Positions 9,069 to 24,776 of a DNA stretch of 64,000 nucleotides are shown here, piece after piece (within the stretch, counting starts at the first letter, position 1; each line of letters opens with the position of its first letter). Both the position numbers and the translations under genes were made by a program. Below the pieces are notes generated by a model, which worked only from the letters and a program-made list of their open reading frames with translations, did not search any database and had not been told where the DNA came from. The DNA is from Nostoc carneum NIES-2107. Lineage in GTDB: Bacteria > Cyanobacteriota > Cyanobacteriia > Cyanobacteriales > Nostocaceae. The stretch is from positions 62,001-126,000 of the forward strand of contig AP018180.1 of NCBI GenBank assembly GCA_002368155.1, read 5' to 3'.

Positions 9069-9608
9069 TCATGCGCCACTGCGTTGGTTATAAGGTAGTT
9101 TCGCCAGCATCATCCCCAAAATACAAGTGTCTGTTATGCCCGAATAGACTAACCCTGCACCCATTAAGCCACTGAGAAGGAGAAACCAGGGAGAAACAAA
9201 TGCTCCTAATAATGTACCAAGTAATACTGATGAACCTGTAATAATTTGCACTTGTCGCAACAGGCTCATTGGAGCTTTGCGGTTGATGGTTGTAGGCAAA
9301 CCTGCTTCTTTCCATGCACCAATACCACCACTCAAATGAGTGACAGTTGCAAACCCAGCGCTAAACAACTTTTGCGCCGCCATTGCCGAGCGATTTCCCG
9401 AGCGACAATAGAGAATAATGCTACCATCTTGAGGAACCTTGTGCGGATCAAAGCTGGAAAGGGAAACTAGTGTTGCACCTGCGATATGTTCTCCTGCATA
9501 TTCAGCCGGTTCACGAACATCAATCAGTGTCACAGCTTTTTGCTCAAGCAGCTGTTTAAGAGTTTGGGCGCTCACAGTTTGTAATTTGTTTACACCAAAA
9601 GTAGTCAC
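9069..9608 (-). CDS. Rhodanese domain fused to DUF2892 membrane domain
   Basis: 179 residues. Residues about 12-105 are a rhodanese domain: IDVREPAEY, and the active-site loop CRSGNRS with the sulfur-accepting cysteine, then LSGGIGAWKEAGLP. Residues about 115-170 hold two hydrophobic helices with the DUF2892 pattern, as in the YgaP family, so the sulfurtransferase is membrane-anchored. Such proteins move persulfide sulfur in sulfide-oxidising cells. Its 5' neighbour on the same strand is the interrupted persulfide-dioxygenase-like gene (75 bp away), and the SQR-like gene is nearby, which supports a role in sulfide/persulfide handling. Confidence 0.9.
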   Translation of the reverse strand: MTTFGVNKLQTVSAQTLKQLLEQKAVTLIDVREPAEYAGEHIAGATLVSLSSFDPHKVPQDGSIILYCRSGNRSAMAAQKLFSAGFATVTHLSGGIGAWKEAGLPTTINRKAPMSLLRQVQIITGSSVLLGTLLGAFVSPWFLLLSGLMGAGLVYSGITDTCILGMMLAKLPYNQRSGA

Positions 9609-10040
9609 GTTGTTTCGCTCCGAATTAAAACTTCAAAATTAAGTAATGAGAAATAATGAATTACGCAGATTTTCTGTTTGTCCCTATGCGGCGCTACCGC
9701 AGCGTTGATTGGCTGGGACAGCTTCTCTAATTTTGTTGGGTTGGGGTAGATTGAGATTTGCCATCAATTGCACAAATTCACTGCGGCTACGTCCAGCTAA
9801 TCGCGGGTTCCATTGCTTCTCTTCACCGATAGTCGAAACTGTGTTTCCGCGATAATCGTGACCAGGATAAACTAAGGTTTCATCCGGTAGTGTGAATAAT
9901 CTTTGGGTGATCGAGTCATACATGGCTTCTGCATTACCACTTTGAAAGTCAGTGCGTCCGCAACCACGAATCAACAGCGCATCTCCAGTTAATAAGTGTG
10001 TGCCATTAACTAGATATGCCATGTGAATATCAGTATGACC

Positions 10041-10072
10041 TGGGGTTGCGTTCGTCGAAGACGTTGCCGAAG
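10041..10072. repeat. In-frame palindromic mini-repeat inside the metallo-hydrolase gene
   Basis: GCGTTCGTCGAAG and CGAAGGCATCGC halves surround ACGTTGC; such GCGATGCC-ended mini-palindromes are interspersed in Nostocales. Its translation interrupts the expected IKA-TPGHTD junction without changing frame. Confidence 0.65.
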
Positions 10073-10269
10073 GCATCGCTTTTATTTTCACACTCCCCAA
10101 CTCTAAGATTTCTCTATCTTTAATCAAGCGGTCTGCACAAGCAACTTGGGCATTCTCTGGTAGGATTCCTTGGCAACCCGTTAACTCGCGCAGTTTTGCT
10201 GTACCTGTAATATGGTCAGCGTGAATATGGGTTTCTAGACAGTATTTGAGAGTTAATCCTAGTTCGTTG

Positions 10270-10310
10270 AGTAATTTGCGTAGACGCGAAGCGGCTTGTC
10301 GTAGACATCG
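10270..10310. repeat. Frame-breaking palindromic mini-repeat inside the metallo-hydrolase gene
   Basis: GCGTAGACGCGAAGCGGC and TTGTCGTAGACATCGCG lie between the codons for VERD and RKLLNELG and shift the frame. Similar motifs occur at 16903-16935 (GGAGCGGCTTCCCGCAGGGT) and around 10980. Confidence 0.7.
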
Positions 10311-10473
10311 CGTTCTACTTGCTCTATTACCGGATCAACTAAAACAGCAAGATTAGTGGTGAGATCGGCAATTAAATAAGTATATGTACTAGTTTCAGGG
10401 TCAAATAATTGTCGAAATAACATTATGGCTGACTCCAATCATCTCTATTGCATACATACTATCTAATAGTACT

Positions 10474-10487
10474 ACTATATAGTAATA
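10474..10487 (-). promoter_or_regulatory. Operator candidate, copy 1 (in front of the metallo-hydrolase gene)
   Basis: TATTACTATATAGT read on the minus strand, with the perfect 10-bp palindrome ACTATATAGT at its core. The identical 14-mer in the same orientation relative to its gene lies in front of the SQR-like gene at 11139. Both genes belong to the sulfide cluster that also encodes an ArsR repressor, so this is the most likely binding site (inference). Confidence 0.6.
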
Positions 10488-10532
10488 TGGTTGAATTGTC
10501 GAGGAGTTTTTGCCAACAGAAAATTCCCCCTG

Positions 10533-10606
10533 CTTGTAGAGACGCGATTCATCGCGTCTCTATCCGATCCATCGCGTCTTTATCCGAGATCCATCGTGTC
10601 TTTACC
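10533..10606. repeat. GACGCGAT palindrome with two degenerate half-copies
   Basis: GTAGAGACGCGATTCATCGC followed by two weaker ATCCATCG(C/T)GTCTTTA units. Confidence 0.8.
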
Positions 10607-10612
10607 CCGCCC

Positions 10613-10843
10613 CTAGTCTACATCCTGACACGAACGCTGACGGCAGTAATACCGCAATCCCCACAAAGAACTCAGCAAAACCAGAATTTTTAAGACCAAA
10701 GGACTTAAAACAAAACTGATAAACAGACTAACTACAGCAATAGTGCTGGACAACACAACTACTATTTCTTCTTTGCGAAAGTAGAATCTGGCAAAGATGG
10801 CGAACAGTGACACGCTAAACGCTAAGAGCAAGGATGTATACAT
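10613..10843 (-). CDS. Small membrane protein of unknown function
   Basis: 76 residues with two or three hydrophobic stretches (about 2-20, 27-47 and 48-63) and a basic, Cys-containing C-terminus (YYCRQRSCQ). No family is recognised. It sits alone between the metallo-hydrolase promoter and the SQR promoter region. Codon use and the membrane pattern support a gene; the absence of a clear ribosome binding site is against it. Confidence 0.5.
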   Translation of the reverse strand: MYTSLLLAFSVSLFAIFARFYFRKEEIVVVLSSTIAVVSLFISFVLSPLVLKILVLLSSLWGLRYYCRQRSCQDVD

Positions 10844-10859
10844 AAAAACGCACCGTGAA

Positions 10860-11100
10860 GAGTCGAAGAGAAATTGGGGAAGGGGGTGAGGGAGATGAGG
10901 GAGACTGGGAAAAGCAAGGGTGCAGGGGGCAGGTGAGACCAGCCCCCGTCTTGGCGGTCTCCGTCACGATGGGGGACTGGCGCTCGCGTAGCGTATCCGA
11001 AGGATTCACCCGAAGGGGTGCAAGGGGAGAAATAATTAATGACAAACACCAAACCCCAATTACCCATTACCAATTACCCATTACCCAGTCCCCAATCCCC
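10860..11100. other. Intergenic repeat-rich stretch
   Basis: Contains low-complexity GGGGAAGGGGG tracts, a palindromic mini-repeat family member around 10980-11020 (CGCTCGCGTAGCGTATCCG, then ACCCGAAGGGGT) and an STRR (TTACCCA, ACCAATT units, 11056-11100). Open frames here have no protein-like features. Confidence 0.6.
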
Positions 11101-11135
11101 AGTAAAGATTTTTATCATTTTAATTTACCAAAGAC

Positions 11136-11165
11136 TTGTATTACTATATAGTTATATCATATAAT
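11136..11165 (+). promoter_or_regulatory. Promoter of the SQR-like gene with overlapping operator candidate (copy 2)
   Basis: A -35-like TTGTAT (11136-11141), an 18-bp spacer and a perfect -10 TATAAT (11160-11165). The 14-mer TATTACTATATAGT (11139-11152), identical to the site at 10474-10487, covers the end of the -35 box and the spacer, where a repressor would block RNA polymerase. The leader is about 130 nt long and includes a possible hairpin (ACCGCC-TCAT-GGTGGT). Confidence 0.6.
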
Positions 11166-11301
11166 GATAGTTATAAGGTAAAACTGCTGTAGGATGTCAG
11201 TCGCAAACCGCCTCATGGTGGTATCAGTAGGTGAACCTTGTAACTAGTATGAGGAGCTGGTTGACTCTAGCTTGATTAAATAGTTACCGGGGGGGAATTT
11301 T

Positions 11302-12606
11302 ATGGCTCGAATTGTGGTGATTGGTGCGGGAATCGGCGGGTTACCCATTACCTACGAACTGCGACGACTACTGCCAAAAGAGCATCAAATTACATTGATT
11401 TCCAATACCCCTAAGTTTACTTTTATTCCTTCCTTACCTTGGGTAGGGTTGAATCTTAAAGAACTTGAGAGTATTCAATTAGATGTAGAAAATCTGTTAG
11501 TAAATCGAGGAATAGATTGGATATTAGGAGGAGTTAGCCAAATTCAGCCAGAATTACAGCAACTCGTTGTCAACGATACTGTCATTTCTTATGACTATGC
11601 AGTGATTGCTACAGGTGCAGAGTTAGCACTAGATGCAATTCCCGGATTGGATCAAGGATATGTGGAGTCGGTGTGTAATCCTGCTCATGCCCTCAAAGCT
11701 GCGGAATGCTGGAAAGAGTTTCTGAAAAATCCCGGGCCGATAGTAGTGGGTGCAGTACCCGGCGCTAGTTGTTTTGGCCCAGCTTACGAGTTTGCATTAC
11801 TTACAGATTGGCTGTTGCGGCGGTATGGGATACGGAGTCGCGCCCCCATTACTTTCGTCACACCAGAACCCTATGTTGGACATTTGGGAATTGGTGGGAT
11901 GGCAAATTCTGCGGAATTGGTAACCAAATTACTCAAACAAAAAGAAATTACAGTACTTGAGAACACCGCTATTAGCCATATTGGGCCAAACACAATTTAC
12001 CTAGCAGATGGGCGTTCTCTACCCTTTGCTTTTAGTATGTTGTTACCGCCATTCCGCGGGCCGCAATTTTTAAGAGAAGCAACTACTTTAAGCGATCCCA
12101 AAGGATTTGTACCTGTATTACCCACTTATCAACATCCTCAGTTTCCTTCAATATATAGTGTTGGGGTAATTACTCAACTCAAACCACCCGAACAAACTCC
12201 CATTCCCATTGGTGTACCTAAGACAGGCCAAATGACCGAAGCAATGGGAGTAGCTGTAGCTCACAACATTGCTGTACAACTAAAGGTGATTCCTGGCCCA
12301 TTAGTAACTCCTACCTTAGAAGCACTTTGTTTAGCCGATTTTGGCGACACAGGAATTGCATTTTTAGCAGACCAAGTTTTACCAGATCCAATTACTAAGC
12401 AAAGACGCAGAGCCATCGCTAAAGAAGGACTTTGGGTAAGTTGGGCTAAGACTGCTTTTGAGAAGTTTTTCTTAGCTAAAATGCGTTGGGGTTTAGCAGT
12501 TCCTTGGTTCGAGCATTGGGGATTGAATATGATGGGCTTAGACCTAGTAAAACCCGTTGAAAACTTAGAAGTTTCACAAGATTCTCAAACTCTTGTAATT
12601 AAATAG
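11302..12606 (+). CDS. sqr: Sulfide:quinone oxidoreductase-like FAD flavoprotein
   Basis: 434 residues. The N-terminal FAD-binding motif is VVIGAGIGGLP (residues 5-15), with a second strand YDYAVIATGAE (97-107) and a C-terminal FAD motif region SIYSVGVI (283-290). Cysteines at 125, 157 and 343 match the number and approximate spacing of the three conserved cysteines of SQR enzymes; the second and third form the redox pair there. The C-terminal amphipathic/hydrophobic region (about 375-415) could dock to the membrane. SQR oxidises sulfide and passes electrons to quinone. The ATG is preceded by a G-rich GGGGGG. The neighbours (rhodanese, persulfide dioxygenase-like gene, ArsR) agree with this. 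Another FAD/NAD-linked oxidoreductase cannot be fully excluded. Confidence 0.82.
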   Translation: MARIVVIGAGIGGLPITYELRRLLPKEHQITLISNTPKFTFIPSLPWVGLNLKELESIQLDVENLLVNRGIDWILGGVSQIQPELQQLVVNDTVISYDYAVIATGAELALDAIPGLDQGYVESVCNPAHALKAAECWKEFLKNPGPIVVGAVPGASCFGPAYEFALLTDWLLRRYGIRSRAPITFVTPEPYVGHLGIGGMANSAELVTKLLKQKEITVLENTAISHIGPNTIYLADGRSLPFAFSMLLPPFRGPQFLREATTLSDPKGFVPVLPTYQHPQFPSIYSVGVITQLKPPEQTPIPIGVPKTGQMTEAMGVAVAHNIAVQLKVIPGPLVTPTLEALCLADFGDTGIAFLADQVLPDPITKQRRRAIAKEGLWVSWAKTAFEKFFLAKMRWGLAVPWFEHWGLNMMGLDLVKPVENLEVSQDSQTLVIK

Positions 12607-12608
12607 TT

Positions 12609-12758
12609 ATACCAATTCTTTATGAAGCTGCATAGAATTCGATCCCCCCTAACCCCCCTTGAAAAAAGGGGGGAACCGGAAGAAATATATCAAAGTCCCC
12701 CTTTTTAAGGGGGATTTAGGGGGATCTAAATATGTACAACTTCACATGAAATTGGTAT
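12609..12758. mobile_element. MITE-like element, family B (150 bp)
   Basis: Starts ATACCAATTC and ends GAAATTGGTAT, with long imperfect inverted ends (ATACCAATTxxxxxTGAAGxTG) continuing into GATCCCCCxTAA and CCCCCTT arms on both sides. Flanking TA dinucleotides fit Tc1/mariner (IS630)-like insertion. It has no coding capacity and lies right after the SQR-like gene. Confidence 0.75.
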
Positions 12759-12888
12759 TAGGGAATATATGGTGCGTTGTGCTGGGCAACAACACACCAC
12801 CAATAATTGTAGATTTCTGCCCAGACTTTTCTCTGCTAAATCTGGATATTTGACCGAAAATGATTAACCAGAAAAAGGAGAAATCAAT

Positions 12889-13341
12889 ATGAAAAACATC
12901 ATCCCAACAATCGCCACAATTTCGATTTTGAGTTTACTTCCAGTACCAGTTGTAATAGCTCAATCAGGTACAGGAGGATGCCCTTCTAGGGCTACTTCTT
13001 CCCCAGGAATGTATGACCCAAAAACAGTAGAAACCATAACAGGTCAAGTAATTGCTATAGACAACACTGCTTCTCCTAGAGGAATGTCTGGTGGCTTGCA
13101 TTTAAAAGTCAAAACTCTAACAGAAGAGATTCCAGTACATTTGGGGCCAGTATGGTACATCAACCAACAAAACATCCAAATTAAACTTCAAGACAATATT
13201 GAAGTTAAAGGTTCAAGAATTACCTTTGCTGGACAGCCCACAATCATTGCTGCCCAAATTAAAAAAGACAACAAAATTCTGAAGTTACGTTCTGATGATG
13301 GTCTACCAGTTTGGGCGGGATGGAGAAGAAACCAGAGGTAA
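12889..13341 (+). CDS. Secreted protein, conserved in DUF4405-associated loci (function unknown)
   Basis: 150 residues with a clear signal peptide (cleavage probably after VVIAQ or nearby, residue about 25). The mature part is a small beta-rich domain (ETITGQVIAID, then PVHLGPVWYI, then DNIEVKGSRI), which looks OB-like, and ends with LRSDDGLPVWAGWRR. It carries a strong ribosome binding site (AAAAGGAG). It is the first gene of a tight run: the next start follows its stop by 4 bp. Its location in the periplasm and its pairing with the small membrane protein suggest a joint redox or ligand-binding role (inference only). Confidence 0.8.
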   Translation: MKNIIPTIATISILSLLPVPVVIAQSGTGGCPSRATSSPGMYDPKTVETITGQVIAIDNTASPRGMSGGLHLKVKTLTEEIPVHLGPVWYINQQNIQIKLQDNIEVKGSRITFAGQPTIIAAQIKKDNKILKLRSDDGLPVWAGWRRNQR

Positions 13342-13345
13342 GCCA

Positions 13346-13636
13346 ATGAACAGCGACGAGCACAATAGTCAGCTAAAAATTTACTTTCGGTTAGTAGATG
13401 TTTTAGCACTAATTACTGGCTGGAGTTTGGCATTTTTGACAGGGTTGTTATTGTGGTTTGCCCCTACAGAAAAAGATGTGGATAGAGTCGCTTGGTTTTT
13501 CGGTTTATTGAAACATGAATGGGGCAAACTTCATTTATTCATGGGTGTAATTGCTTTGTGTATCACAACGATTCATCTTGTAATTTCTCAAAAAGTTTTA
13601 CAAAGTTTGAATCATCGTCACAATTTATGGGAATAA
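13346..13636 (+). CDS. Small DUF4405-like membrane protein (cytochrome b561-like fold)
   Basis: 96 residues from ATG at 13346, chosen because GAGG lies just upstream and the longer frame would overlap the preceding gene. Two or three helices: VDVLALITGWSLAFLTGLLLW, then HEWGKLHLFMGVIALCITTIHLVI. The paired histidines HEW, LH and IH match the DUF4405 family, which is linked to membrane b-type cytochrome or flavinylated electron-transfer systems. Whether this short member binds haem is unknown. It is part of the operon with the secreted protein before it and the ArsR gene 16 bp after it. Confidence 0.75.
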   Translation: MNSDEHNSQLKIYFRLVDVLALITGWSLAFLTGLLLWFAPTEKDVDRVAWFFGLLKHEWGKLHLFMGVIALCITTIHLVISQKVLQSLNHRHNLWE

Positions 13637-13652
13637 TCTTTATTAAAGATGT

Positions 13653-13946
13653 ATGGAAATTGCACTCAACCCCAATGAATTAGAACTACTAGCACGCCGC
13701 TTTAAAGTTCTTGCAGAACCCACAAGATTGCAGATTTTAGGGGCATTATGCAATCAAGAGCAGACCGTACAAGAAATATGCGATCGCACTGGTCTTAAAC
13801 AAGGAAATGTTTCTAGACACTTGCAATTAATGAAAGATGCAGGAGTGTTAACTTGTCGCCGCGAGGGTTCATGGCGCTACTACCGTGTGATCGATACCGA
13901 ACTTTTAACTATGTGCAAACATGTTTTTCGCAACGTTATGAGGTGA
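13653..13946 (+). CDS. ArsR-family transcriptional repressor, possible persulfide sensor
   Basis: 97 residues, a complete winged-helix ArsR protein: FKVLAEPTRLQILGAL, then the recognition helix QGNVSRHLQLMKDAGVL and the wing REGSWRYYRV. It has four cysteines (33, 43, 68, 88). Cys33 at the start of the second helix and Cys88 in the last helix are roughly where SqrR/BigR/YgaV-type persulfide sensors keep their reactive pair; it lacks the ELCVCDL metal site of ArsR/SmtB types. In those systems persulfide forms a cross-link and releases the DNA, turning on SQR and rhodanese genes. The neighbouring genes and the shared 14-mer fit that model. The sensing chemistry is inferred. Confidence 0.88.
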   Translation: MEIALNPNELELLARRFKVLAEPTRLQILGALCNQEQTVQEICDRTGLKQGNVSRHLQLMKDAGVLTCRREGSWRYYRVIDTELLTMCKHVFRNVMR

Positions 13947-13949
13947 ATT

Positions 13950-14462
13950 GTGATACCTTGCCACATCCGACGAATTTTTTCGTGGCTATTACTAATTGGC
14001 AGTTTAGTGTTGTTTATTTTGGGAGGTTGGGGAACTTTTTCAACTAAGGAAGCTGCTGCAGTAATTAATCAACTGCAACCAGCACCTCAACAAATTCTTT
14101 ACCGTTCTCAGAATTCTCTATTAGACTCAACGGGCAAGTCTTGGCAAGTAGTGCTGTTTAAGCAGGTGACAGCAGATGAGACTAATTCTTTGTCTTTAAG
14201 ACTGGTTGGTTTTCCTGGTGCTGTTGAGTTTTTACATCCTCAACCATTGGAGTTGAAAACAGATACAGGCTCTACTTGGCAGGCTCAAGATAGCTTTTCC
14301 CATGATTCACCGGCAGCAAATGTGGGGCAATATGACCTCACAAAACTAACCGCTCAATTACCAAGAGATGCTTCTTTAACACTCTCCTTACCGTTAAAAA
14401 ATCAACCTGGTTTTGCTCTCAAAATACCCTCAAGTATTGTTCATGAATGGCAAACCTTATAG
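13950..14462 (+). CDS. DUF3122-like exported protein
   Basis: 170 residues starting at GTG 3 bp after the ArsR stop codon. An N-terminal membrane/signal segment (about 9-28, FSWLLLIGSLVLFILGGWGTF) is followed by a beta-rich domain: ILYRSQNSLLDSTGKSWQVV, then LRLVGFPGAVEFLHPQPL and NVGQYDL. This pattern matches the cyanobacterial DUF3122 family, for which no function is known. It is translationally tied to the regulator and the next gene, so it probably responds to the same signal. Confidence 0.72.
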   Translation: MIPCHIRRIFSWLLLIGSLVLFILGGWGTFSTKEAAAVINQLQPAPQQILYRSQNSLLDSTGKSWQVVLFKQVTADETNSLSLRLVGFPGAVEFLHPQPLELKTDTGSTWQAQDSFSHDSPAANVGQYDLTKLTAQLPRDASLTLSLPLKNQPGFALKIPSSIVHEWQTL

Positions 14463-14486
14463 TTACTAAAAATGTGGAGTAAAAAC

Positions 14487-14882
14487 ATGACAGAATTATT
14501 TTCCCAAGCATGGATGCAAACTTACGCAGAAAAGTGGAATCAAGAACCTGAGTTAGCAGATGCGCTCAAACAAATTCATTTCAATTCTGTAATTGGTTAT
14601 GGTTTTGAAGATGAATCAGAACCTAGAGGTGTACTCACCATTGTGGATGGAAAAGTCATTGAAGCAGGTGCTTACAATGGGCAAAAACTCAACTGGGATC
14701 TGCGCGCAGATCAGGATCATTGGCAACAGTGGGTAGCTAAGGGCTTAAACATGATGGGTTTGAGCATGGCTTATATGTCGCGCAAGTTGCAATTCCGTGT
14801 AGGAGATTATCTCGCCATGATTAAAGATCCACGCATGGCAGGGCCATTTATTAAGTCTTTCTCAGTTATGGGTAGGGTATGA
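14487..14882 (+). CDS. SCP2-like sterol/lipid-carrier domain protein
   Basis: 131 residues from ATG 14487, chosen because GGAG lies 7 bp upstream; an in-frame ATG at 14472 precedes that site. The pattern LTIVDGKVIEAG, then WDLRADQDHWQQWVAKG and FRVGDYLAMI with a hydrophobic helix between them resembles the SCP2 sterol-carrier fold, which binds apolar ligands. No signal peptide, so cytoplasmic. It is the last gene of the ArsR operon. The family call is by pattern only and the ligand is unknown. Confidence 0.65.
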   Translation: MTELFSQAWMQTYAEKWNQEPELADALKQIHFNSVIGYGFEDESEPRGVLTIVDGKVIEAGAYNGQKLNWDLRADQDHWQQWVAKGLNMMGLSMAYMSRKLQFRVGDYLAMIKDPRMAGPFIKSFSVMGRV

Positions 14883-14883
14883 A

Positions 14884-14912
14884 AAGGGCATGGGGCATAG
14901 GGCATAGGGCAT
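14884..14912. repeat. GGGCATA heptamer STRR
   Basis: About four copies directly after the SCP2-like gene stop codon. Confidence 0.75.
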
Positions 14913-15059
14913 GAGAAAGACAGATTTTCATGCTTGGTTGTGCCAAAACCTGCTGTGAATGCCTGAAGAGATGAACTCTACGCCTCTGCGTCTCTGCGTG
15001 AAAAAAAATAGGTGAATCAGGCGCAAAAAAATACTCCCAATCTAAAATCCAAAATTGTC

Positions 15060-15407
15060 ATGAAACGTACTCTCAAAGAAAACGAACCAAATCAAACTCA
15101 ACCTTTCAGCTTAAGCGCTAGACAACTACAATCGCGGCAAGCACAATTCATAATTATCGATGCTCGCAGTTGGATGGAGTACGTTCTTGGGCATATTCCC
15201 GGAGCACGTTGCCTCAGCCAAAGCAGTATCCTGAAGGAGATTCCTAAAGACCAACTCATAGTAGTCACTTGCCTGTCAGGACACCGCAGTTTAGCCACAG
15301 CAAATTGGTTAATTGAGCAAGGCTACAGTAAGGTTTACAACTTACAAGGCGGCATCATGACATGGCAACAGTTAGGCTATTCTCTGCAACGCGGAAACAA
15401 TCCCTAG
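15060..15407 (+). CDS. Single-domain rhodanese
   Basis: 115 residues from ATG 15060. An in-frame GTG at 15012 would add 16 residues, most of them encoded by an ATCCAAA-type STRR (about 15040-15056), so the internal ATG is preferred. The fold is complete: FIIIDARSWMEYVLGHIPGA, the active-site loop TCLSGHRS with the catalytic Cys, then NLQGGIMTWQQLGY. No membrane anchor, so cytoplasmic. Together with the anchored rhodanese at 9069 it gives the locus two sulfurtransferases flanking the SQR and ArsR genes. Confidence 0.88.
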   Translation: MKRTLKENEPNQTQPFSLSARQLQSRQAQFIIIDARSWMEYVLGHIPGARCLSQSSILKEIPKDQLIVVTCLSGHRSLATANWLIEQGYSKVYNLQGGIMTWQQLGYSLQRGNNP

Positions 15408-15447
15408 CTATTTGATGCTGAATTTATAGAAGAGCAGAATCAATCTT

Positions 15448-16881
15448 ATGTTTAACGATCAATCGTCCCTCAACTTGGAACCAACTCATACAGACACTAC
15501 CCCAGAACCAGCCCCAGAACTACAACCCAAAAAACCCAAGCGGCTGGGGATGATTGCTTTGATTACTGTTTTTGCGATCGCATTTGGGGGTGTGGCTTGG
15601 TTCTGGTTATTTCGTCATGCTTCCGAATCTACGGAAGCGACAACGGCTAATCTCCAACCTCTAGAGGTGGAAACTACAACGGCTGCTCAAGAATCTATAG
15701 CGGGTGACAGCAGTCTCACTGGTACTATCGAATCTGTGGAAACTGTCACCACTACCAGCCGGATTCAAGGACAAATTAAAAATCTTCCAGTGGCAGAAGG
15801 CGACAGAGTCAAAGCCGGTCAAGTGCTGGCTATTATCGATGTTAAAGATATCCAAGCCCAAGGGAATCAGGCATTAGCAGCCATCGCCCAAGCGCAAGCA
15901 GGTGTGACAGTGGCGGCGGCGGCGCAAACGCAAGCAATGGCAAGCAAAACTCAGGCAGAAGCCCAGTTAAATCAAGCCGAGGCGGGACAACAACAAGCCG
16001 AAGCCCAATTACAAGAAGCCCAAGCACAGCTAGCTGATGCCGAGTTAAATCAACGCCGGATGGCAATGCTGCATAAAGATGGTGCAGTTAGTCAATCACA
16101 GTTGGATCAGGCGAATACACAGGTAGCATTAATTCAAGCGCGGATTAAACAAGCCAAGGCGGGGATCGAGCAAGCCAAACGAGGAATTGATCGCGCCCAA
16201 GCAGGTGTACAACAAGCCAGTTCCCAAGTCAAACAAGCCGAAGCTGGAGTAGAACAAGCACGTTCCCAAGTTCAACAAGCCAAAGCCGGACAACAGCAAA
16301 CCCTGGCTAACTTAAACTATGGCACTGTCACCGCACCCTTCGCAGGCGTAATTACCAAAAAACATACAGAAGTCGGTGCGATCGCGGGGCCAGGACAGCC
16401 GATAGTAACATTAGAAAGCACCAACCGACTACGTTTAAGTGTCGCAGTCCCAGAATCCTTAATTTCCTTAGTCAGATTGGGAGACGAGGTGACAGTACAG
16501 CTAGATAGTGTTAACCGTTCTGTTACTGGTCACGTGCGGCAAATTGTACCTTCTGCCAACTTAAATTCCCGTAGTTTTACGGTGAAAGTAGCTTTAGATA
16601 ATTCCTATAAATTAATGCCAGGAATGTTCGGACGCTTAGAACTACCCAGGGAAACTCGCACAGTGATGATGATTCCGCAAAATGCTGTGTTTAAGCGTGG
16701 TCAATTGGAAGGAGTATATGTAATTGCGGCTAATGATATTGCTCAATTACGCTGGGTAAAAACCGGGAAAGTGCAAGATAACAAAGTAGAAATTGTCTCC
16801 GGCTTAGAAACAGGCGATCGCATTATTATTAGCAATGTTGAAGAACTGCGTGATGGACAGCAAGTTGTTGCTAATAAATAA
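15448..16881 (+). CDS. RND efflux periplasmic adaptor (membrane fusion protein)
   Basis: 477 residues. A cytoplasmic Pro-rich head, one membrane segment (about 35-53), a lipoyl/barrel-sandwich half (RIQGQIKNLPVAEGDRVKAG), a long alpha-hairpin (about 145-290), the second lipoyl half (LNYGTVTAPFAGVITKK), beta-barrel and membrane-proximal domains. The hairpin is made of near-perfect AG(V/I)(E/Q)QA(K/R) units and is strongly Ala/Gln-rich. Such adaptors link an inner-membrane RND pump to an outer-membrane channel; no TolC gene is adjacent. The RND gene follows 168 bp later on the same strand. Confidence 0.93.
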   Translation: MFNDQSSLNLEPTHTDTTPEPAPELQPKKPKRLGMIALITVFAIAFGGVAWFWLFRHASESTEATTANLQPLEVETTTAAQESIAGDSSLTGTIESVETVTTTSRIQGQIKNLPVAEGDRVKAGQVLAIIDVKDIQAQGNQALAAIAQAQAGVTVAAAAQTQAMASKTQAEAQLNQAEAGQQQAEAQLQEAQAQLADAELNQRRMAMLHKDGAVSQSQLDQANTQVALIQARIKQAKAGIEQAKRGIDRAQAGVQQASSQVKQAEAGVEQARSQVQQAKAGQQQTLANLNYGTVTAPFAGVITKKHTEVGAIAGPGQPIVTLESTNRLRLSVAVPESLISLVRLGDEVTVQLDSVNRSVTGHVRQIVPSANLNSRSFTVKVALDNSYKLMPGMFGRLELPRETRTVMMIPQNAVFKRGQLEGVYVIAANDIAQLRWVKTGKVQDNKVEIVSGLETGDRIIISNVEELRDGQQVVANK

Positions 16882-16894
16882 AGAGTTTTATCTC

Positions 16895-17030
16895 ACGCAT
16901 AGACGCGGAGCGGCTTCCCGCAGGGTAGGCGCAAAGGCGCAAAGAATTTCTCTCACTAAATAACTCTCTTCTATAAATTCTTCCTTCGTGTTCTTCGCGT
17001 ACTTCGCGGTTCGTTTATCTCTTCCCTATC
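16895..17030. repeat. Palindromic mini-repeats between adaptor and pump genes
   Basis: Includes GACGCGGAGCGGCTTCCCGC followed by AGGGTAGGCGC, and CTTCGCGTACTTCGCGG. These are interspersed repeats of the family that also disrupts the metallo-hydrolase gene. Confidence 0.65.
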
Positions 17031-17049
17031 TCACAAAATTGCATATTTT

Positions 17050-20000
17050 ATGAACGGTAAAAGTTCAGAACCAAAAATCCAAAATCAATCCAAACTTGGT
17101 TTTGTTGGCAAACTAGCCAAAAAATTTATCGACTCTAAATTAACTCCCCTAATTATTTTAGTTTCATTATTATTAGGCATTGGGGCAACAATACTTCTCC
17201 CCCGCGAAGAAGAACCGCAAATTACAGTTCCAATGGCAGATGTATTCGTGCAAATGCCTGGTGCAACTGCTAAAGAGGTAGAACAGCGAATTACCTTCCC
17301 AATGGAGAAGTTAATTAAAGAATTACCTGGTGTCGAGTATGTTTATTCTACTTCTAGCCCTGGTTCATCTGTTGCCATTGTCCGGTTTTATGTAGGGCAA
17401 AAAACCGAAGATGCTATTGTTCAACTTTATAACAAACTATACGCTAACTTCGATAAAATTCCGGCTGGTGTTTCGCAGCCATTAATTAAATCTCGCGCCA
17501 TTGATGATGTACCGATTCTAACGCTTACTCTGTGGAGTAATCAAGCTAACTCTACCGATTTACGGCAAATTGCGGCTCAATTAGATGAGCAAATTAAGCA
17601 GGTGCCAGATGTATCAGAAACCACTTTAATTGGTGGTCAAAAACGACAGTTACGCATCGAAGTTGACCCTGCAAGATTGAATGCTTTCGGATTAACTCCC
17701 TTAGATATTTCCCAAGCATTACAGTTACAAAATACCGAACTAGCAAGCGGTGCTTTGAGCCAAAATAATCAATCATTATTAATTAGAACGCAAAGCTTTA
17801 TTCGCTCGGTAGAAGATGCACAAAATTTAGTTGTGAGTGTGGCGAATAATCAACCTGTATATTTGCGGGATGTCGCCACTGTTAGCGATGGTGCAGAAGA
17901 ACCAGCTAGTTATGTATTTTTCGGACAAGGTAAGACAGAGGGTAAACATGATGCAGAGAAAGCAGCAACCGGTGAAGCGGATGCAGTGACAATTGCGATC
18001 GCAAAACGTCCAGGTGCGAATGCAATTCAAGTTTCCCATCACGTATTGCACAAGTTAAAGGAAATTCAGCACAATTACATCCCCAATTATGTACAGCTAA
18101 CAGTCACGCGGGATTATGGTGAAACTGCTGCGGAACGTTCTAACGAGTTGTTAGTCCACATGGGAATTGCAGTAATTTCTGTAACAGTCCTCATGTGGTT
18201 TGCACTGGGTAAAAAAGAGGCGATGGTGGTGGCAGTTTCCATCCCTGTTACCTTAGCGCTAACTCTCGCCAGCTTTGTATTTTACGGCTTTACCCTCAAC
18301 CGTGTAACATTTTTTGCGCTAATTTTCTCTATTGGTATTTTAGTTGATGATGCGATCGTGGTTGTGGAAAACGTTGGTCGTCATTTGCAACTTCCCGAAA
18401 ACAAAACCCGAATGCAGTTATCGCACAATCGCCAAAAGACGCTACAAAAAATTGTTCTCGAAGCTGTAGACGAAGTAGGAAATCCGACAATTTTGGCGAC
18501 TTTAACTGTAATTGCGGCGATTTTGCCAATGGCGTTCGTTGGCGGGTTGATGGGGCCTTATATGCGTCCAATTCCTTTGGGTGCATCTGCGGCGATGATT
18601 TTCTCGGCGTTAGTGGCATTTATTGTTGTTCCTTGGGCAACGATGCGCTTTTTTGGCAATTACAATAGTCACAATCACGGACATGAAAAGGAAGATTTTC
18701 TCAGTCAGCTTTATCGCCGCTTCATGGGGCCGTTAATTGCGCGTCGTCAATGGGGAAACGCCTTTATTGCAGGGACATTGGCGTTATTAATCGCAGCGTT
18801 GGGATTAGCGGGATTTCGGTTAGTTATCCTGAAAATGTTACCCTATGACAACAAAAGCGAATTGCAGATTGTCCTCAATATGCCAGAAGGGACAACCCTA
18901 GAACAGACAGCTAGGGTAACAAAAGAAATGGGGCAATATTTGACTACAGTACCAGAAGTCACGAACTATCAAAGTTATGTTGGTACTGCGTCGCCTTACA
19001 ACTTCAATGGCTTGGTGCGACATTACTTTTTGCGTTCCGGTGCGAATATCGCAGATATGCAGGTGAACTTTTTACCAAAAGGCGATCGCAACAGGCAAAG
19101 CCATGATATTGCTAAAGCTATTCGCCCCCACCTCAAGCAAATTGCTGATAAGTATAACGGTCGTGTGCAAGTAGCAGAAATACCCCCAGGGCCGCCAGTA
19201 CTGCAAACTTTGGTTACTGAAGTCTACGGTGCAGATTATGAAAAACAAATTGAACTAGCTCAACAAATCCGTACAATTTACAAGAATACCCCTGATATTG
19301 TGGATGTGGATTGGTATATGGAATCACCACAAACAGAATATCAATTAGTAATTGACCGAGAAAAAGCTGCCCTCAATGGTATAAGTCCAGCGCAAATTTC
19401 CCAAGTATTACAAATTGCTCTTTCTGGTCAAAATGTTGGTTTACTTCATGATGCTAATTCCCGCGAAGATATCGCCATTAACTTGCGGTTAAATCAGGCA
19501 AACCGCACCAGTTTAGCAGACCTAAAATCTTTAAAAATGAAGGGAATCAATGGTAATTTAGTTGCTGTCAGTGATTTAATTCAAACGGAAAAGACCACCG
19601 CCAATCACAGTATTTATCACAAAAACTTAAAGCCTGTAGTTTATGTTACGGCTGATGTTGCTGGGAAAGTCGAGAGTGCAGTTTATGCCATGCTCAATGT
19701 GCAATCTCAAATAGATAAACTCTCCCATACTCAGGGCTATAACATTACTACCCACTTTACCGAACAACCCCCAACCACAGAAAAATTTGGCATTAAATGG
19801 GATGGTGAATGGCACGTTACTTTTGAAGTCTTCCGCGATTTAGGAATTGCTTTTGCTGTAGTTTTAGTGTTGATTTATGCCCTGGTAGTCGGCTGGTTCC
19901 AATCTTTTATTACTCCCCTAGTAATTATGGCAGCAATTCCCTTTTCTCTAGTAGGAATTATGCCAGCTCACTGGTTAATGGGAGCATTTTTCAGCGCTAC

Positions 20001-20352
20001 CTCCATGATTGGCTTTATTGCTGGAGCCGGAATTGTGGTGAGAAACTCAATTATTTTGGTAGATTTTATTGAATTGCGTCTGAAAGAAGGAATCCCTTTA
20101 GAAGAGGCAGTAATTGATGCGGGCGCAGTGCGATTTCGTCCGATGTTACTCACAGCCGCGGCGGTAATAGTTGGTTCCGCAATTATTTTAACTGACCCAA
20201 TCTTCCAAGGATTAGCAATTTCCTTAATGGCTGGTGAAGTCGCTTCTTTATTATTATCGCGGTCAGCCGTTCCCATTTTATATTACAAAGTTTGGCGAGG
20301 TAAAAAATCAAAACCAGAAGCTATCCCTATTCCTTCTGCAATTGTCAATTAA
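17050..20352 (+). CDS. RND multidrug/metabolite efflux permease (AcrB superfamily)
   Basis: 1100 residues, the usual length for the family or slightly above. It shows the duplicated RND layout: TM1 (about 35-52, [17 protein letters not shown]), a large periplasmic loop, TM2-6 with the proton-relay motif [15 protein letters not shown] in TM4, then a second half with TM7 and [17 protein letters not shown]. Substrates cannot be read from sequence. The adaptor gene directly upstream is the partner. It stands at the end of the sulfide/thiol cluster, but a repeat-containing 168-bp gap makes co-transcription with the ArsR operon uncertain. Confidence 0.95.
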
Positions 20353-21300: not shown

Positions 21301-21903
21301 TTACTGCCAAATGTAAATCAGAATAAATAACACAATCCAGATCACATCAACAAAGTGCCAAAACAATGAAGTGGCATTGACACCAAAGTGACCAGTATCA
21401 TAATTACCTGGATTAAAAGAGCGTACCAGAATAATCGACTGTAGCAAAATCCCGGTAAGTACGTGCAAACCGTGAAAGCCTGTGAGCAAATAGAACATCC
21501 CACCGAAAACGCCAGAAGTAAAACCAAAGGCGAGGCTGTGCCATTCAAGGGCCTGTCCTAATAAAAAGTAGCTACCCATAGCCATTGTAGCTGCAAGAAA
21601 CAGACGAAATTTCAGTAAGTCGTGACGTTGCAAAGCACGTTCTGCCAAGTAAATCACGAAACTACTGGAAACCAGAATCACTGTATTGATTGCGGGGTCT
21701 TTAATTTCTAATCCAGAGACACCAGCTGGTAGCCAGTTAGGAGTCGTGATTTTGTAAACAATATATCCAGCGAAAAAGCTGAGGAAAATAACACTTTCTG
21801 ATAGCAAGAAGACGATGAAGCCAAACATCTTATTGCCTTCTTCGTCGTGGGTATGTTCACCACTTATGTGATGCGACTCCCCAGAAGTGAGATAACTGTC
21901 CAT
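21301..21903 (-). CDS. ctaE: Terminal oxidase subunit III
   Basis: 200 residues, the short five-helix form of haem-copper oxidase subunit III. GFIVFLLSESVIFLSFFAGY carries the conserved Glu of the first helix; LTGFHGLHVLTG and VNATSLFWHFVDVIWIVLF are family signatures. It has AAGGAG at good spacing before the ATG. It is the last gene of the oxidase operon, 177 bp after subunit I; the gap contains an AACCGCAGAGG inverted mini-repeat (about 21990-22070). Confidence 0.95.
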   Translation of the reverse strand: MDSYLTSGESHHISGEHTHDEEGNKMFGFIVFLLSESVIFLSFFAGYIVYKITTPNWLPAGVSGLEIKDPAINTVILVSSSFVIYLAERALQRHDLLKFRLFLAATMAMGSYFLLGQALEWHSLAFGFTSGVFGGMFYLLTGFHGLHVLTGILLQSIILVRSFNPGNYDTGHFGVNATSLFWHFVDVIWIVLFILIYIWQ

Positions 21904-22080
21904 TGCGGAAATTCTCCTTAACCAAATTCAGTAATGAGTGCTGAGTGAAGATAAAGTAGTCAGCATCTTGATTGCAGAGGGTAATAAACGAACCGCAGAG
22001 GACGCGGAGGACTCAGAGATATGAAACTCTGCGTTACTCAGCGTTAACCCTGCTTCCTCTGCGGTTAAAAATTACTTGCC

Positions 22081-23772
22081 TCAAGCAAACGGCTTGTAGG
22101 CGGAATCGGATGGGGCCTGAATGTTAGCAGTCAATGGTTCAGACTTACCGTAGCCGTAGGGTTCGCTGATGACGATGGGGATTTCTTCAAAGTTTTCTAC
22201 TGGTGGTGGAGAAGCAACTAACCATTCCAAACCAATAGCGCGCCAAGGATTAGCAGGTGCTTTTTGACCATGCATCCAGGAAACTACCATATTGAAAATG
22301 AAGGGTAAGGTAGACATTCCTAAGAGGAATGAGCCAAGACTAGCAACAATATTCCAGAATTCATACTCTGGTGCGTAGGAAGAAATCCGGCGTAACATCC
22401 CTTGCAATCCTAATGGGTGCATAGGTAAGAAGTTGAGGTTAGTACCAATGAATGTTAACCAGAAGTGCAATTTGCCCCAGCTTTCGTAGTACATCCGTCC
22501 AGTCATTTTGGGGAACCAGTGGTAGATGGCTGCATACAAGCCCATTGTCACTGTTCCGAATAGGACATAGTGGAAGTGACCAACTACGAAATAGGTGTTA
22601 TTGACGTGAACATCTACAGGTACTGAGGAAAGCATAATGCCAACGATACCTGCGAAGACAAACATGATCAACGCACCCAAGGCAAATAGCATGGGTGTAG
22701 TTAAGCGCATCTTTCCACCCCAAATTGTTGCTACCCAAGCAAACACCTTAATGCCAGTCGGTACAGATACCAACATTGTGGTCACCATGAACAGCATCCG
22801 CATCCAAGCTGGTGTACCACTGACATACAAATGGTGTACCCAAACAATGGCGCTAACTACTGCAATTAACAGAGAGGAAATCGCAACTACTTTGTAACCA
22901 AATAAAGGTTTGCGGCTATAAACAGGGAAGATTTCGGAGAAGATGCCGAAGATGGGCAGAATGATCACATAAACGGCAGGGTGGGAGTAAAACCAGAAGT
23001 AATGTTGGAACATTACTGGGTTCCCGCCTCTGCTGGGGTCAAAAAAGGCTGTGCCAGCAGTGAGGTCTAGTAGCAACATGACTGCACCAGCTGTCAAGGC
23101 AGGTAGACCAAAAAGTTGGATAATTTGGGCGCTAAACACTGCCCAAACGAACAGGGGCATTTTAAAGAAGCCCATGCCTGGTGCACGCATCTTGACGATG
23201 GTGGTGACAAAGTTAACTGCCCCCATAATTGAGGAGACACCAGATATTGCTACTGCCAACAACCAGACAACTTGACCATTAATTAAGTTACCTGTAGGGT
23301 TTTGCAAGCTAACTGGAGGATAAGCCCACCATCCAGCCTGGGCAGGGCCACCGGGAACAAAGAAGCTGGCCATCAAAAGAATCCCGACTACTGGCACCAT
23401 CCAAAAGGCGACGGCGTTGAGGCGAGGAAAGGCCATGTCTCGTGCCCCAATCATCAAGGGCACTAAATAGTTAGCAAAACCTATTAAAGAGGGGAATGTC
23501 CACAAAAACAGCATCACAGTGCCGTGCATGGTGAACATCCCGTTATAGAAGGTGCGGTCTACTAGGTCTGATTCGGGTGTAATCAGTTCTCCCCGAATCA
23601 CCATTGCAAAGATACCGCCAACTAAAAAGAAGATGAATGCTGTCACAAGGTATTGAATACCAATGACCTTGTGGTCAGTGCTGAAGCTGAAGTATTCCTT
23701 CCAATTCCCTGGTGATTCGTGGTGAGGTTCCTCACTAGGGAGATTAACGTTTTTTACAGAGATGTTTGTCAT
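22081..23772 (-). CDS. ctaD: Terminal oxidase subunit I (haem-copper, A2-like)
   Basis: 563 residues from ATG 23772, which has AAGGA upstream; an in-frame TTG at 23790 would overlap subunit II. Twelve helices with the haem and CuB histidines are visible (TMHGTVMLFLW, WVHHLYVSGTP, VGHFHYVLFG). The helix VI motif reads FYSHPAVYV: the Glu of A1-type enzymes (GHPEV) is replaced and the YSHPxV signature of A2-type proton channels is present. It reduces oxygen to water and pumps protons. The genes upstream encode a CuA-less subunit II, so the electron donor is probably quinol, as known for cyanobacterial ARTO/Cox3 enzymes. Confidence 0.95.
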   Translation of the reverse strand: MTNISVKNVNLPSEEPHHESPGNWKEYFSFSTDHKVIGIQYLVTAFIFFLVGGIFAMVIRGELITPESDLVDRTFYNGMFTMHGTVMLFLWTFPSLIGFANYLVPLMIGARDMAFPRLNAVAFWMVPVVGILLMASFFVPGGPAQAGWWAYPPVSLQNPTGNLINGQVVWLLAVAISGVSSIMGAVNFVTTIVKMRAPGMGFFKMPLFVWAVFSAQIIQLFGLPALTAGAVMLLLDLTAGTAFFDPSRGGNPVMFQHYFWFYSHPAVYVIILPIFGIFSEIFPVYSRKPLFGYKVVAISSLLIAVVSAIVWVHHLYVSGTPAWMRMLFMVTTMLVSVPTGIKVFAWVATIWGGKMRLTTPMLFALGALIMFVFAGIVGIMLSSVPVDVHVNNTYFVVGHFHYVLFGTVTMGLYAAIYHWFPKMTGRMYYESWGKLHFWLTFIGTNLNFLPMHPLGLQGMLRRISSYAPEYEFWNIVASLGSFLLGMSTLPFIFNMVVSWMHGQKAPANPWRAIGLEWLVASPPPVENFEEIPIVISEPYGYGKSEPLTANIQAPSDSAYKPFA

Positions 23773-23786
23773 CGGTGAGTTTCCTT

Positions 23787-24713
23787 TCAACCAGGATAAT
23801 TGACTAGAGGTGCTGATTCAGGTACGACTGTAGCCCATCCGGTTTTGCCTGACTGACTGGTTGCTTGGGCATACTCATCAGCTGCTTGATTGTATGCGGG
23901 AGTAGGTGTTTGGGTTGCAGCTTGGGCTAGCCATTGGTGGTATGCTTCGGGAGATTCAACCACTACATTAGCGTGCATAGTGGCAAAGTATGTACCGCTA
24001 TATTGAGAGTCGGTCAGTTGGTATTTGCCGGGACGAATGGGAGTGAACTCAAAGTCAATATTGTGGTTGGGAATGATGTCTTGCTTCAGTCGGAATGCAG
24101 GGATATAGAAGCCATGTAGTACATCTTCTGATTTTAGTGCCAACCGGACGCGGCGATCGCTTGGTAGATGTAGTTCGGTACTAGTAACATCTCGTTCGGG
24201 GTAATGAAATACCCAAGCCCATTGTTTGGCGATGACATCGATGTTTTCTACTGGTTCAGCTAAAGCCGCAACGGATTCATCTTTAGGTGCTGCATAAGCC
24301 GATTCCATTCCCATCGGATTATGCAGATGCACTAATTCCATTGGGCCTTGAATGCCCATTTGTTCGTAAATTTGGTAGCTGTAACCTGCAATCCAAAAGA
24401 CTAGCAAAATGGGGATGGCTGTCCACACAACTTCTAGGGTGATATTGCCCTCAATTGCTGGGCCATCACTATAATCATTCTTGCCAGCACGATGGAAGAG
24501 GACAGAATACAACAAAACGCCAGTAACACCTAGAAAAATAAACGCACCCAGGGTTACTAAGAAACTAATCAGATCATCAATGAGTAGAGATTCAGCCGCC
24601 GCCTGTGGAGGAAGCCAAGAATAGGACTGTTTACCTATCCAGAGACTCATAACAGTCACGGCGATCGCACCGATTATCAGTGCCACAATATTAAAAATCT
24701 TCTGGATTGTCAT
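23787..24713 (-). CDS. ctaC: Terminal oxidase subunit II lacking the CuA site (ARTO/Cox3 type)
   Basis: 308 residues from ATG 24713. Two N-terminal helices (about 10-30 and 50-75, then VVWTAIPILLVFW) anchor a periplasmic cupredoxin domain (KQWAWVFHYP, then DVLHGFYIPAFRLKQD). Where CuA subunits have CxExCGxxH, this one reads DSQYSGTYFATMH: both bridging cysteines are absent. The absence of CuA is the known mark of cyanobacterial alternative respiratory terminal oxidases, which oxidise quinol instead of cytochrome c. The C-terminal tail is low in complexity (TQTPTPAYNQAADEYAQA). The start lies in an AGGGTCA STRR without a clear ribosome binding site. Confidence 0.93.
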   Translation of the reverse strand: MTIQKIFNIVALIIGAIAVTVMSLWIGKQSYSWLPPQAAAESLLIDDLISFLVTLGAFIFLGVTGVLLYSVLFHRAGKNDYSDGPAIEGNITLEVVWTAIPILLVFWIAGYSYQIYEQMGIQGPMELVHLHNPMGMESAYAAPKDESVAALAEPVENIDVIAKQWAWVFHYPERDVTSTELHLPSDRRVRLALKSEDVLHGFYIPAFRLKQDIIPNHNIDFEFTPIRPGKYQLTDSQYSGTYFATMHANVVVESPEAYHQWLAQAATQTPTPAYNQAADEYAQATSQSGKTGWATVVPESAPLVNYPG

Positions 24714-24715
24714 AG

Positions 24716-24776
24716 TCAATAGTCAAGGGTCAATAGTCAAGGGTCAAGGGTCAAGGGTCAAGGATCAAGGGTCAAA
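24716..24776. repeat. AGGGTCA heptamer STRR inside the oxidase operon
   Basis: About eight heptamers (GTCAAGG/GTCAATA) lie between the second DUF2231 gene and subunit II, covering the place where the subunit II ribosome binding site would be. Confidence 0.85.

Follow-up and report, generated by a model that had tools for sequence, protein, structure and literature searches.

A recurring cyanobacterial sulfide operon with a putative ArsR operator, an SCP2-like protein and an RND pump that may export zero-valent sulfur

The stretch analysed here, called the window, comprises 64,000 nucleotides of contig AP018180.1 (positions 62,001 to 126,000) of the cyanobacterium Nostoc carneum NIES-2107, whose genome spans 9.36 Mb in four contigs. 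At window positions 9069-20352 lies a cluster encoding a sulfide:quinone reductase (SQR), an ArsR-family regulator, a DUF3122 protein, an SCP2-like protein, two rhodaneses and an RND permease with its HlyD-type adaptor. An earlier note, made from the sequence alone, had proposed a sulfide/persulfide defence cluster at this position; all the genes it named were found there, the persulfide dioxygenase-like gene in two frames rather than one. Comparison with other genomes indicated a conserved gene set and order, an operator-like palindrome before SQR and persulfide genes, and a confidently predicted SCP2 fold. The features are as follows.

9069-9608, minus strand: rhodanese with YgaP-like transmembrane domain (Pfam PF00581, 2.7e-19; PF11127, 3.4e-7)
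9684-10438, minus strand: persulfide dioxygenase-like (MBL) gene, disrupted, in two frames (PF00753, 2.8e-7 on the downstream part)
10468-10489, no strand: palindromic site, probable ArsR operator, upstream of the dioxygenase-rhodanese genes (24.8 bits with a position weight matrix, PWM)
11137-11158, no strand: palindromic site, probable ArsR operator, upstream of SQR (PWM 27.6 bits; itself a PWM seed)
11302-12606, plus strand: SQR (PDB SQR 3hyv, 2e-94; 3sz0, 8e-94)
12889-13341, plus strand: OB-like protein, export judged by eye, accessory (MamS model 2.7e-5, far under cut-off)
13346-13636, plus strand: DUF4405 membrane protein of 96 aa, accessory (PF14358, 3.1e-7)
13653-13946, plus strand: ArsR-family regulator with Cys33, 43, 68 and 88 (NF033788, above cut-off)
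13950-14462, plus strand: DUF3122 protein, hydrophobic helix at the N-terminus, export assessed by eye (PF11320, 1.6e-48)
14472-14882, plus strand: SCP2-like protein, by eye without signal peptide, conserved start at 14487 (AlphaFold model, Foldseek)
15012-15407, plus strand: rhodanese (PF00581, 4e-17)
15448-16881, plus strand: HlyD-type periplasmic adaptor (PF16576, 7.6e-21)
17050-20352, plus strand: RND permease (NF033617, 459 bits, below cut-off 1250; solved MexK, 4e-78)

The spacing of 3-20 nt reported for this run in the earlier note holds for the five genes from OB to SCP2, which are separated by 4, 16, 3 and 9 nt, but not for the remainder, with 282 nt between SQR and OB, 129 nt between SCP2 and rhodanese, 40 nt between rhodanese and HlyD and 168 nt between HlyD and RND. 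The persulfide dioxygenase gene of the window is interrupted by a break in frame: its THIHADH motif is in a 216-codon frame (9684-10334) and its N-terminal part in another (10259-10438), and it scores 63 bits against the NF040641 cut-off of 625. An intact 240-aa copy is present in a relative (L137; L and G numbers are our locus and genome labels), and a second homologous stretch elsewhere in the same genome, 73% identical, lies within a 730-aa frame.

Enzymes of the SQR family oxidise sulfide at the membrane, pass the electrons to quinone and yield polysulfide or elemental sulfur. Homology of the window SQR to solved members extends over most of its length (residues 3-410 with 3hyv, 2-418 with 3sz0; E ~1e-94), and it has Cys125 (in SVCNP), Cys157 (ASCFGP) and Cys343 (ALCLADF), which we take to be catalytic or redox-active; the enzyme is presumably of type I. 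SQR loci were fetched at ≥50% identity from 242 genomes of the class, and the locus count takes those with an SQR above 400 bits (78 of 81; L116, L117 and L118 left out), its thresholds (e.g., ArsR ≥80 bits) missing weaker homologues. Within 8.5 kb of SQR, DUF3122 was present in 46 of the 78 loci (44 on the same strand), ArsR in 36, HlyD in 30, SCP2 in 26, RND in 24, rhodanese in 22, the dioxygenase in eight, OB in five and DUF4405 in three; locus L079, with a fused DUF3122, was counted as SQR only. SQR was followed by ArsR, DUF3122, SCP2, rhodanese, HlyD and RND, in that order, in 16 of the 26 SCP2 loci.

Of the 242 genomes, 28 encode the SCP2-like protein, 19 OB and three the DUF4405 protein. 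The gene set is unlikely to be a chance assembly because it recurs with SQR: at ≥50% identity, and among the matches listed, SQR was found in 28/28 SCP2-bearing genomes versus 47/214 others (Fisher p 9e-17, kinship ignored), a count in which the G159 copy is a split gene, that of G049 (one of the 47) is in pieces, and fragments <70 aa are excluded. DUF3122 is present in at least 178 of the 242 genomes, and with at most four copies per genome among the matches listed, random placement is estimated to put it beside SQR at ~2% or less. A recurring sulfide operon is well supported by this comparison. Its distribution is patchy: the window genome is the sole member of its order among the 28 SCP2 genomes, and other Nostoc and Calothrix strains were positive in a separate scan. 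The annotation of Pseudanabaena plasmid ABRG53d runs ArsR, DUF2892, FAD/NAD(P)-binding oxidoreductase, ArsR, DUF3122, SCP-2, rhodanese, RND adaptor, RND permease and DsbA.

Some further genes recur. One encodes a homologue of a Tll0287-like CxxCH protein (assigned by a Pfam run on one member) and follows SQR on the same strand in 29/78 loci (L087, L088, L089 and others), starting -109 to +665 nt from the SQR end; it stands before DUF3122 in several loci, and is distant and on the opposite strand in three more. The cluster of a DsbA-like protein (L140:15697-16374) is present in 11 loci, directly 3' of RND in L144, L208 and L272. Locus L208 is an operon copy on a plasmid of G158 with no SQR nearby, a shortened DUF3122 frame and, by eye, recombinase- or transposase-like genes upstream.

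The near-palindrome stands at 10468-10489 and 11137-11158, with four strand-wise matches in the window versus 0.13 expected. Across the whole genome, with at most one mismatch, it occurred at three places on both strands and two on one strand, versus one match for a reversed control pattern. The three both-strand places are upstream of SQR, upstream of the dioxygenase genes and ~150 nt upstream of a CoA-disulfide reductase (CoADR)-rhodanese gene (L207:4646-6298), which encodes a pyridine-nucleotide-disulfide oxidoreductase fused to rhodanese, by family a CoA-disulfide or persulfide reductase. A PWM seeded with 15 SQR sites gave a site of ≥12 bits upstream of 41/60 non-seed SQR genes (seeds excluded, their close relatives included), 59/78 of all SQR genes and 9/10 dioxygenase genes, versus 21 of 368 other open reading frames (ORFs) and 3 of 880 shuffled upstream regions, in which two-base blocks were moved and dinucleotides not exactly shuffled. 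The shared 22-nt site likely marks a persulfide regulon, and the sulfide/persulfide role first suggested for the cluster is strengthened by a palindrome common to SQR, dioxygenase-rhodanese and CoADR-rhodanese genes. Defence and energy use alike fit the sequence.

The operon ArsR would be the protein that binds this palindrome. Its Cys33, 43, 68 and 88 are kept in 42, 47, 45 and 43 of 47 aligned rows. In family membership and in its putative control of sulfide genes it resembles the persulfide-sensing repressors SqrR and BigR, which use two cysteines; it differs from them in its four conserved cysteines and in scoring 45.8 bits against the NCBIfam BigR equivalog, whose cut-off is 155. Membership of the ArsR family would also suit a metalloid response, with arsenite sensed by ArsR and expelled by RND as proposed for arsenic-related sqr clusters. 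Excerpts of earlier work place ArsR, ars genes, ChrA and psbA next to cyanobacterial sqr genes; Synechocystis, Geitlerinema and Gloeomargaritales are the cases with arsenic genes adjoining sqr (PMC5061849, PMC11304991). In Geitlerinema PCC 9228, the region upstream of the second sqr holds a gene for glutathione S-transferase and one for a multidrug efflux pump (PMC5061849). The window cluster shares with the Synechocystis suo and arsenic-related clusters, as these excerpts describe them, an SQR adjoining an ArsR-type regulator (PMC5061849, PMC11304991). Unlike them, it showed no ChrA or ars genes among its ORFs and domains, and it adds DUF3122, SCP2-like, rhodanese, HlyD and RND genes. The palindrome stands before persulfide genes, and the RND permease scores higher as multidrug-type (459 and 371 bits) than as metal-type (326 bits); we consider a metalloid response very improbable, and E. 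coli-type arsenic sensing by ArsR was likewise set aside.

An SCP2 fold is confidently predicted for the SCP2-like protein. Its AlphaFold model (56 aligned sequences) has a pLDDT of 95.4, and Foldseek matched it to Thermus SCP2 (2cx7, E 2e-7, TM score 0.78) and to UbiJ-SCP2 (3e-5). The NCBI name for its relatives is 'SCP-2 sterol transfer family protein'. It shares the predicted fold with UbiJ and Thermus SCP2 proteins, but is only ~11% and ~22% identical to them, respectively, stands among sulfur genes and belongs to a group of which 0/20 members matched Pfam SCP2 families at E≤10. A persulfide-bearing cysteine carrier is unlikely, because the window protein has no cysteine and only 9/56 aligned rows have any; seven methionine columns, the start among them, are ≥80% conserved. 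Non-covalent binding of an apolar ligand would be the natural reading of the fold, and the apolar ligand (quinone or polysulfide) that had been suggested for this protein agrees with the predicted fold as well as with the scarcity of cysteine, the ligand itself being one that we infer. Distant SCP2 relatives (31-34% identity) occur on 10 Rhodococcus plasmids.

The fold matches also bear on a different cargo. The SCP2-like protein could bind quinone or a membrane lipid and, with RND and DUF3122, protect or repair the photosynthetic membrane under sulfide stress, no sulfur being carried; one of the closest fold matches, UbiJ-SCP2, acts in ubiquinone synthesis, SQR is itself a quinone enzyme, and RND systems move lipids or sterols. 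The word RND also occurs in a paper on bacterial sterol-binding domains (PMC10942540). The SCP2 gene is nevertheless absent from 214/242 cyanobacterial genomes, all of which need quinone, and the few annotated neighbour clusters (most neighbours lying outside annotation) held no quinone-synthesis gene. Taken with the proteobacterial sulfur-globule-like genes described next, which also speak for sulfur as cargo, this leaves the quinone or lipid explanation rather unlikely, though still to be reckoned with.

Export of sulfur by SCP2 and RND, the reading we pursue here, draws in part on proteobacterial relatives. A scan of named genomes kept 80 of 90 SCP2 relatives, 48 of them proteobacterial by title and 55-69% identical. 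Names that we take to denote sulfur oxidisers (Thiohalobacter, Thiotrichales, Thiomargarita, Thioalkalivibrio, Thiogranum, Chromatiales and other sulfur-bacteria groups) stand on 13 of these 48 records, and HlyD-RND follows SCP2 in 30 of the 48 loci. Sulfur-globule-like genes, a likeness to the Sgp systems of purple sulfur bacteria, were found in 13/30 SCP2-HlyD-RND loci, or 12/22 where ≥8.5 kb of sequence follows; most lie 6.3-8.2 kb past SCP2, and Pfam SGP above cut-off supports eight of the 13. Nine of the proteins recovered by the hidden Markov model (HMM) had also served as its seeds, and a 21.6-bit match in L175 and a second match in L196 were dropped as unlike sulfur-globule proteins. 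In a genome search that 47 of the 48 loci entered (L193 left out), SGP above the Pfam cut-off was present in 29/46 SCP2-bearing proteobacterial genomes (87 matches, 1.9 each) versus 0/14 control genomes; given 1.9 matches per genome, chance placement within 20 kb of SCP2 is 1-2%. SQR was present in 29 of the 46 genomes searched (46 of 48 loci, L182 and L193 left out), in 25 of them at ≥40% along most of the sequence.

The two groups of loci differ in content. With window proteins as queries, the proteobacterial stretches yielded no SQR, no DUF3122 and one weak ArsR match (L173, 49 bits), and with the sulfur-globule HMM the cyanobacterial loci yielded no SGP-like ORF, which sets them apart from Sgp systems. 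At title level, no paper in the literature searched dealt with a carrier or a pump acting in Sgp systems. Two other gene clusters recur. One encodes an exported 269-aa protein with a weak, under-cut-off DUF4412 match (L150:17888-18697), found downstream of SCP2-RND in 11 proteobacterial loci and adjoining sulfur-globule genes in several; the other, in 16 loci, encodes a sigma-54 activator divergent to SCP2 (L168:8396-9820, domains checked on that member).

The window RND is a full-length homologue of the RND superfamily, below the NCBIfam cut-offs for the multidrug-type (459/1250 and 371/1250 bits) and metal-type (326/701 bits) subfamilies. When compared with 28 proteobacterial genomes (28 of 30 RND-bearing loci; L146 and L197 left out), it matched one subfamily at 40-49% identity and other RNDs at ≤28%, and its best match was the SCP2-linked pump in 18/28 genomes, in each case among the matches listed; in G277 the SCP2-linked copy is cut by the contig end. 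In a tree of 52 RNDs (quick method), the pumps linked to SCP2 fell on at least three branches (two from cyanobacteria, one from proteobacteria), and RNDs without SCP2 stood between them. Such a pattern would arise if carrier and pump were coupled repeatedly, or once at an early stage with losses afterwards. In an SCP2 tree with few columns and many open forks, three of four SCP2s beside the second cyanobacterial pump type grouped with first-type SCP2s (a fifth protein, L139, was set aside, its tree row not being the copy beside that pump). Because these SCP2s fall in the first type's clade, the pump may in places have been swapped with the carrier retained, a weak argument for the two acting together. 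A single-clade SCP2-RND module, seen when the outgroups were paralogues from the window genome, dissolved after SCP2-less proteobacterial paralogues were added.

These trees also bear on whether an ordinary multidrug or solvent pump merely travels with a sulfide-resistance island whose neighbours share no function. The patchiness of the gene set, the presence of the SCP2 gene on Pseudanabaena and Kovacikia plasmids and the nearest solved chain to RND, MexK, would all agree with such an origin. It accounts poorly for a gene order kept across distant families and for SCP2 standing beside RNDs of several branches in two phyla, and we judge it improbable.

The DUF3122 protein is a secure family member (PF11320, 164.6 bits versus a cut-off of 25). 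Its model has a pLDDT of 82.6 and a helix at residues 4-27, and no PDB fold matched at E≤1e-3. A natural fusion (L079:9302-11110, 602 aa) joins SQR (residues 1-421) to DUF3122 (443-597) with a hydrophobic helix between. DUF3122 thereby gains SQR as a concrete candidate partner, one fused protein included. The word 'DUF3122' was in no paper of the literature library searched, which excludes subscription papers.

Repeated co-occurrence with SQR, proposed in the earlier note as the check on its cluster, was found for ArsR, DUF3122, SCP2-like, rhodanese and RND genes, but not for OB (5/78 loci) or DUF4405 (3/78). The exported and membrane pair, suggested as a possible extra electron or sulfur transfer step, was dropped as the core of the system on account of that rarity, and the two proteins appear to be rare accessories. 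OB gave no Pfam match. In the DUF4405 protein, His63 and His77 are kept in seven aligned rows (five distinct). They stand 14 residues apart, a spacing that also occurs in cytochrome b; heme binding would be a candidate role.

Our overall reading is of an ArsR-controlled sulfide/persulfide operon in which SCP2 and RND export the zero-valent sulfur made by SQR; we hold its chances to be evenly balanced, and the export step itself is likewise close to an even call. In the proposed mechanism, SQR would oxidise sulfide to polysulfide or S8, and sulfane sulfur would free the four-cysteine ArsR from the palindrome, opening the regulon. The cytosolic SCP2-like protein could then take up S8 or a long polysulfane non-covalently and hand it to the HlyD-RND pump, which may export this apolar sulfur outward. 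The thiol-bound fraction would be handled by rhodanese together with either the dioxygenase or CoADR-rhodanese. DUF3122, anchored by its N-terminal helix, might assist SQR from the opposite face of the membrane, and OB and DUF4405 would be lineage-specific additions. A bolder version, in which the genes form a dedicated zero-valent sulfur export machine through which cyanobacteria excrete SQR sulfur and sulfur-oxidising proteobacteria load periplasmic globules, with DUF3122 as a far-side SQR subunit, is more tentative and falls somewhat short of an even chance.

Several results weigh against sulfur export. SCP2 is missing at 52/78 SQR loci and is therefore dispensable for sulfide oxidation, and its fold would also suit quinone or lipid cargo. 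The nearest solved relative of the pump, MexK (4e-78), is a multidrug pump. In 10/28 proteobacterial genomes the nearest RND, among the matches listed, is not the SCP2-linked one, and the context of eight of these ten (not G254 and G277) held HlyD-RND without SCP2; the alternative of early coupling with later losses points the same way. No RND stands at 18/48 proteobacterial SCP2 loci, nine of which have ≥6 kb downstream. Most proteobacterial records are uncultured gamma- or alphaproteobacterial bins, only 13/48 with sulfur-group names; no SQR was matched at 1e-15 in 17/46 SCP2-bearing genomes; and the sulfur-globule comparison covers SCP2-bearing genomes and 14 controls rather than SCP2-less relatives.

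The question of how zero-valent sulfur (S0) leaves the cell has been raised for Chlorobaculum tepidum, whose extracellular S0 is, in the excerpted text of a 2025 paper, made 'by an unknown mechanism' with 'a transport mechanism' needed across the outer membrane (PMC12285230). That text proposes outer-membrane vesicles and polysulfide diffusion, in contrast to the carrier with pump suggested here (PMC12285230). In a literature search of titles and abstract openings, with subscription papers outside it, SCP2, DUF3122 or an RND pump was not named with SQR. The carrier-plus-pump pair, tied to cyanobacterial SQR and to proteobacterial sulfur-globule-like genes, would supply named genes for the S0-export question, and the 22-nt site predicts a cyanobacterial persulfide regulon.

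Three minor features lie in or next to the window cluster. Between the dioxygenase and SQR genes, a 20-nt unit (CGATTCATCGCGTCTCTATC type) is present in three tandem copies (10545-10606). Between SQR and OB, a C-run/G-run inverted repeat (12640-12732) resembles, by eye, a small mobile repeat or terminator. Just past the cluster, on the minus strand at 21301-24719, are genes that read, by eye, as cytochrome c oxidase subunits.

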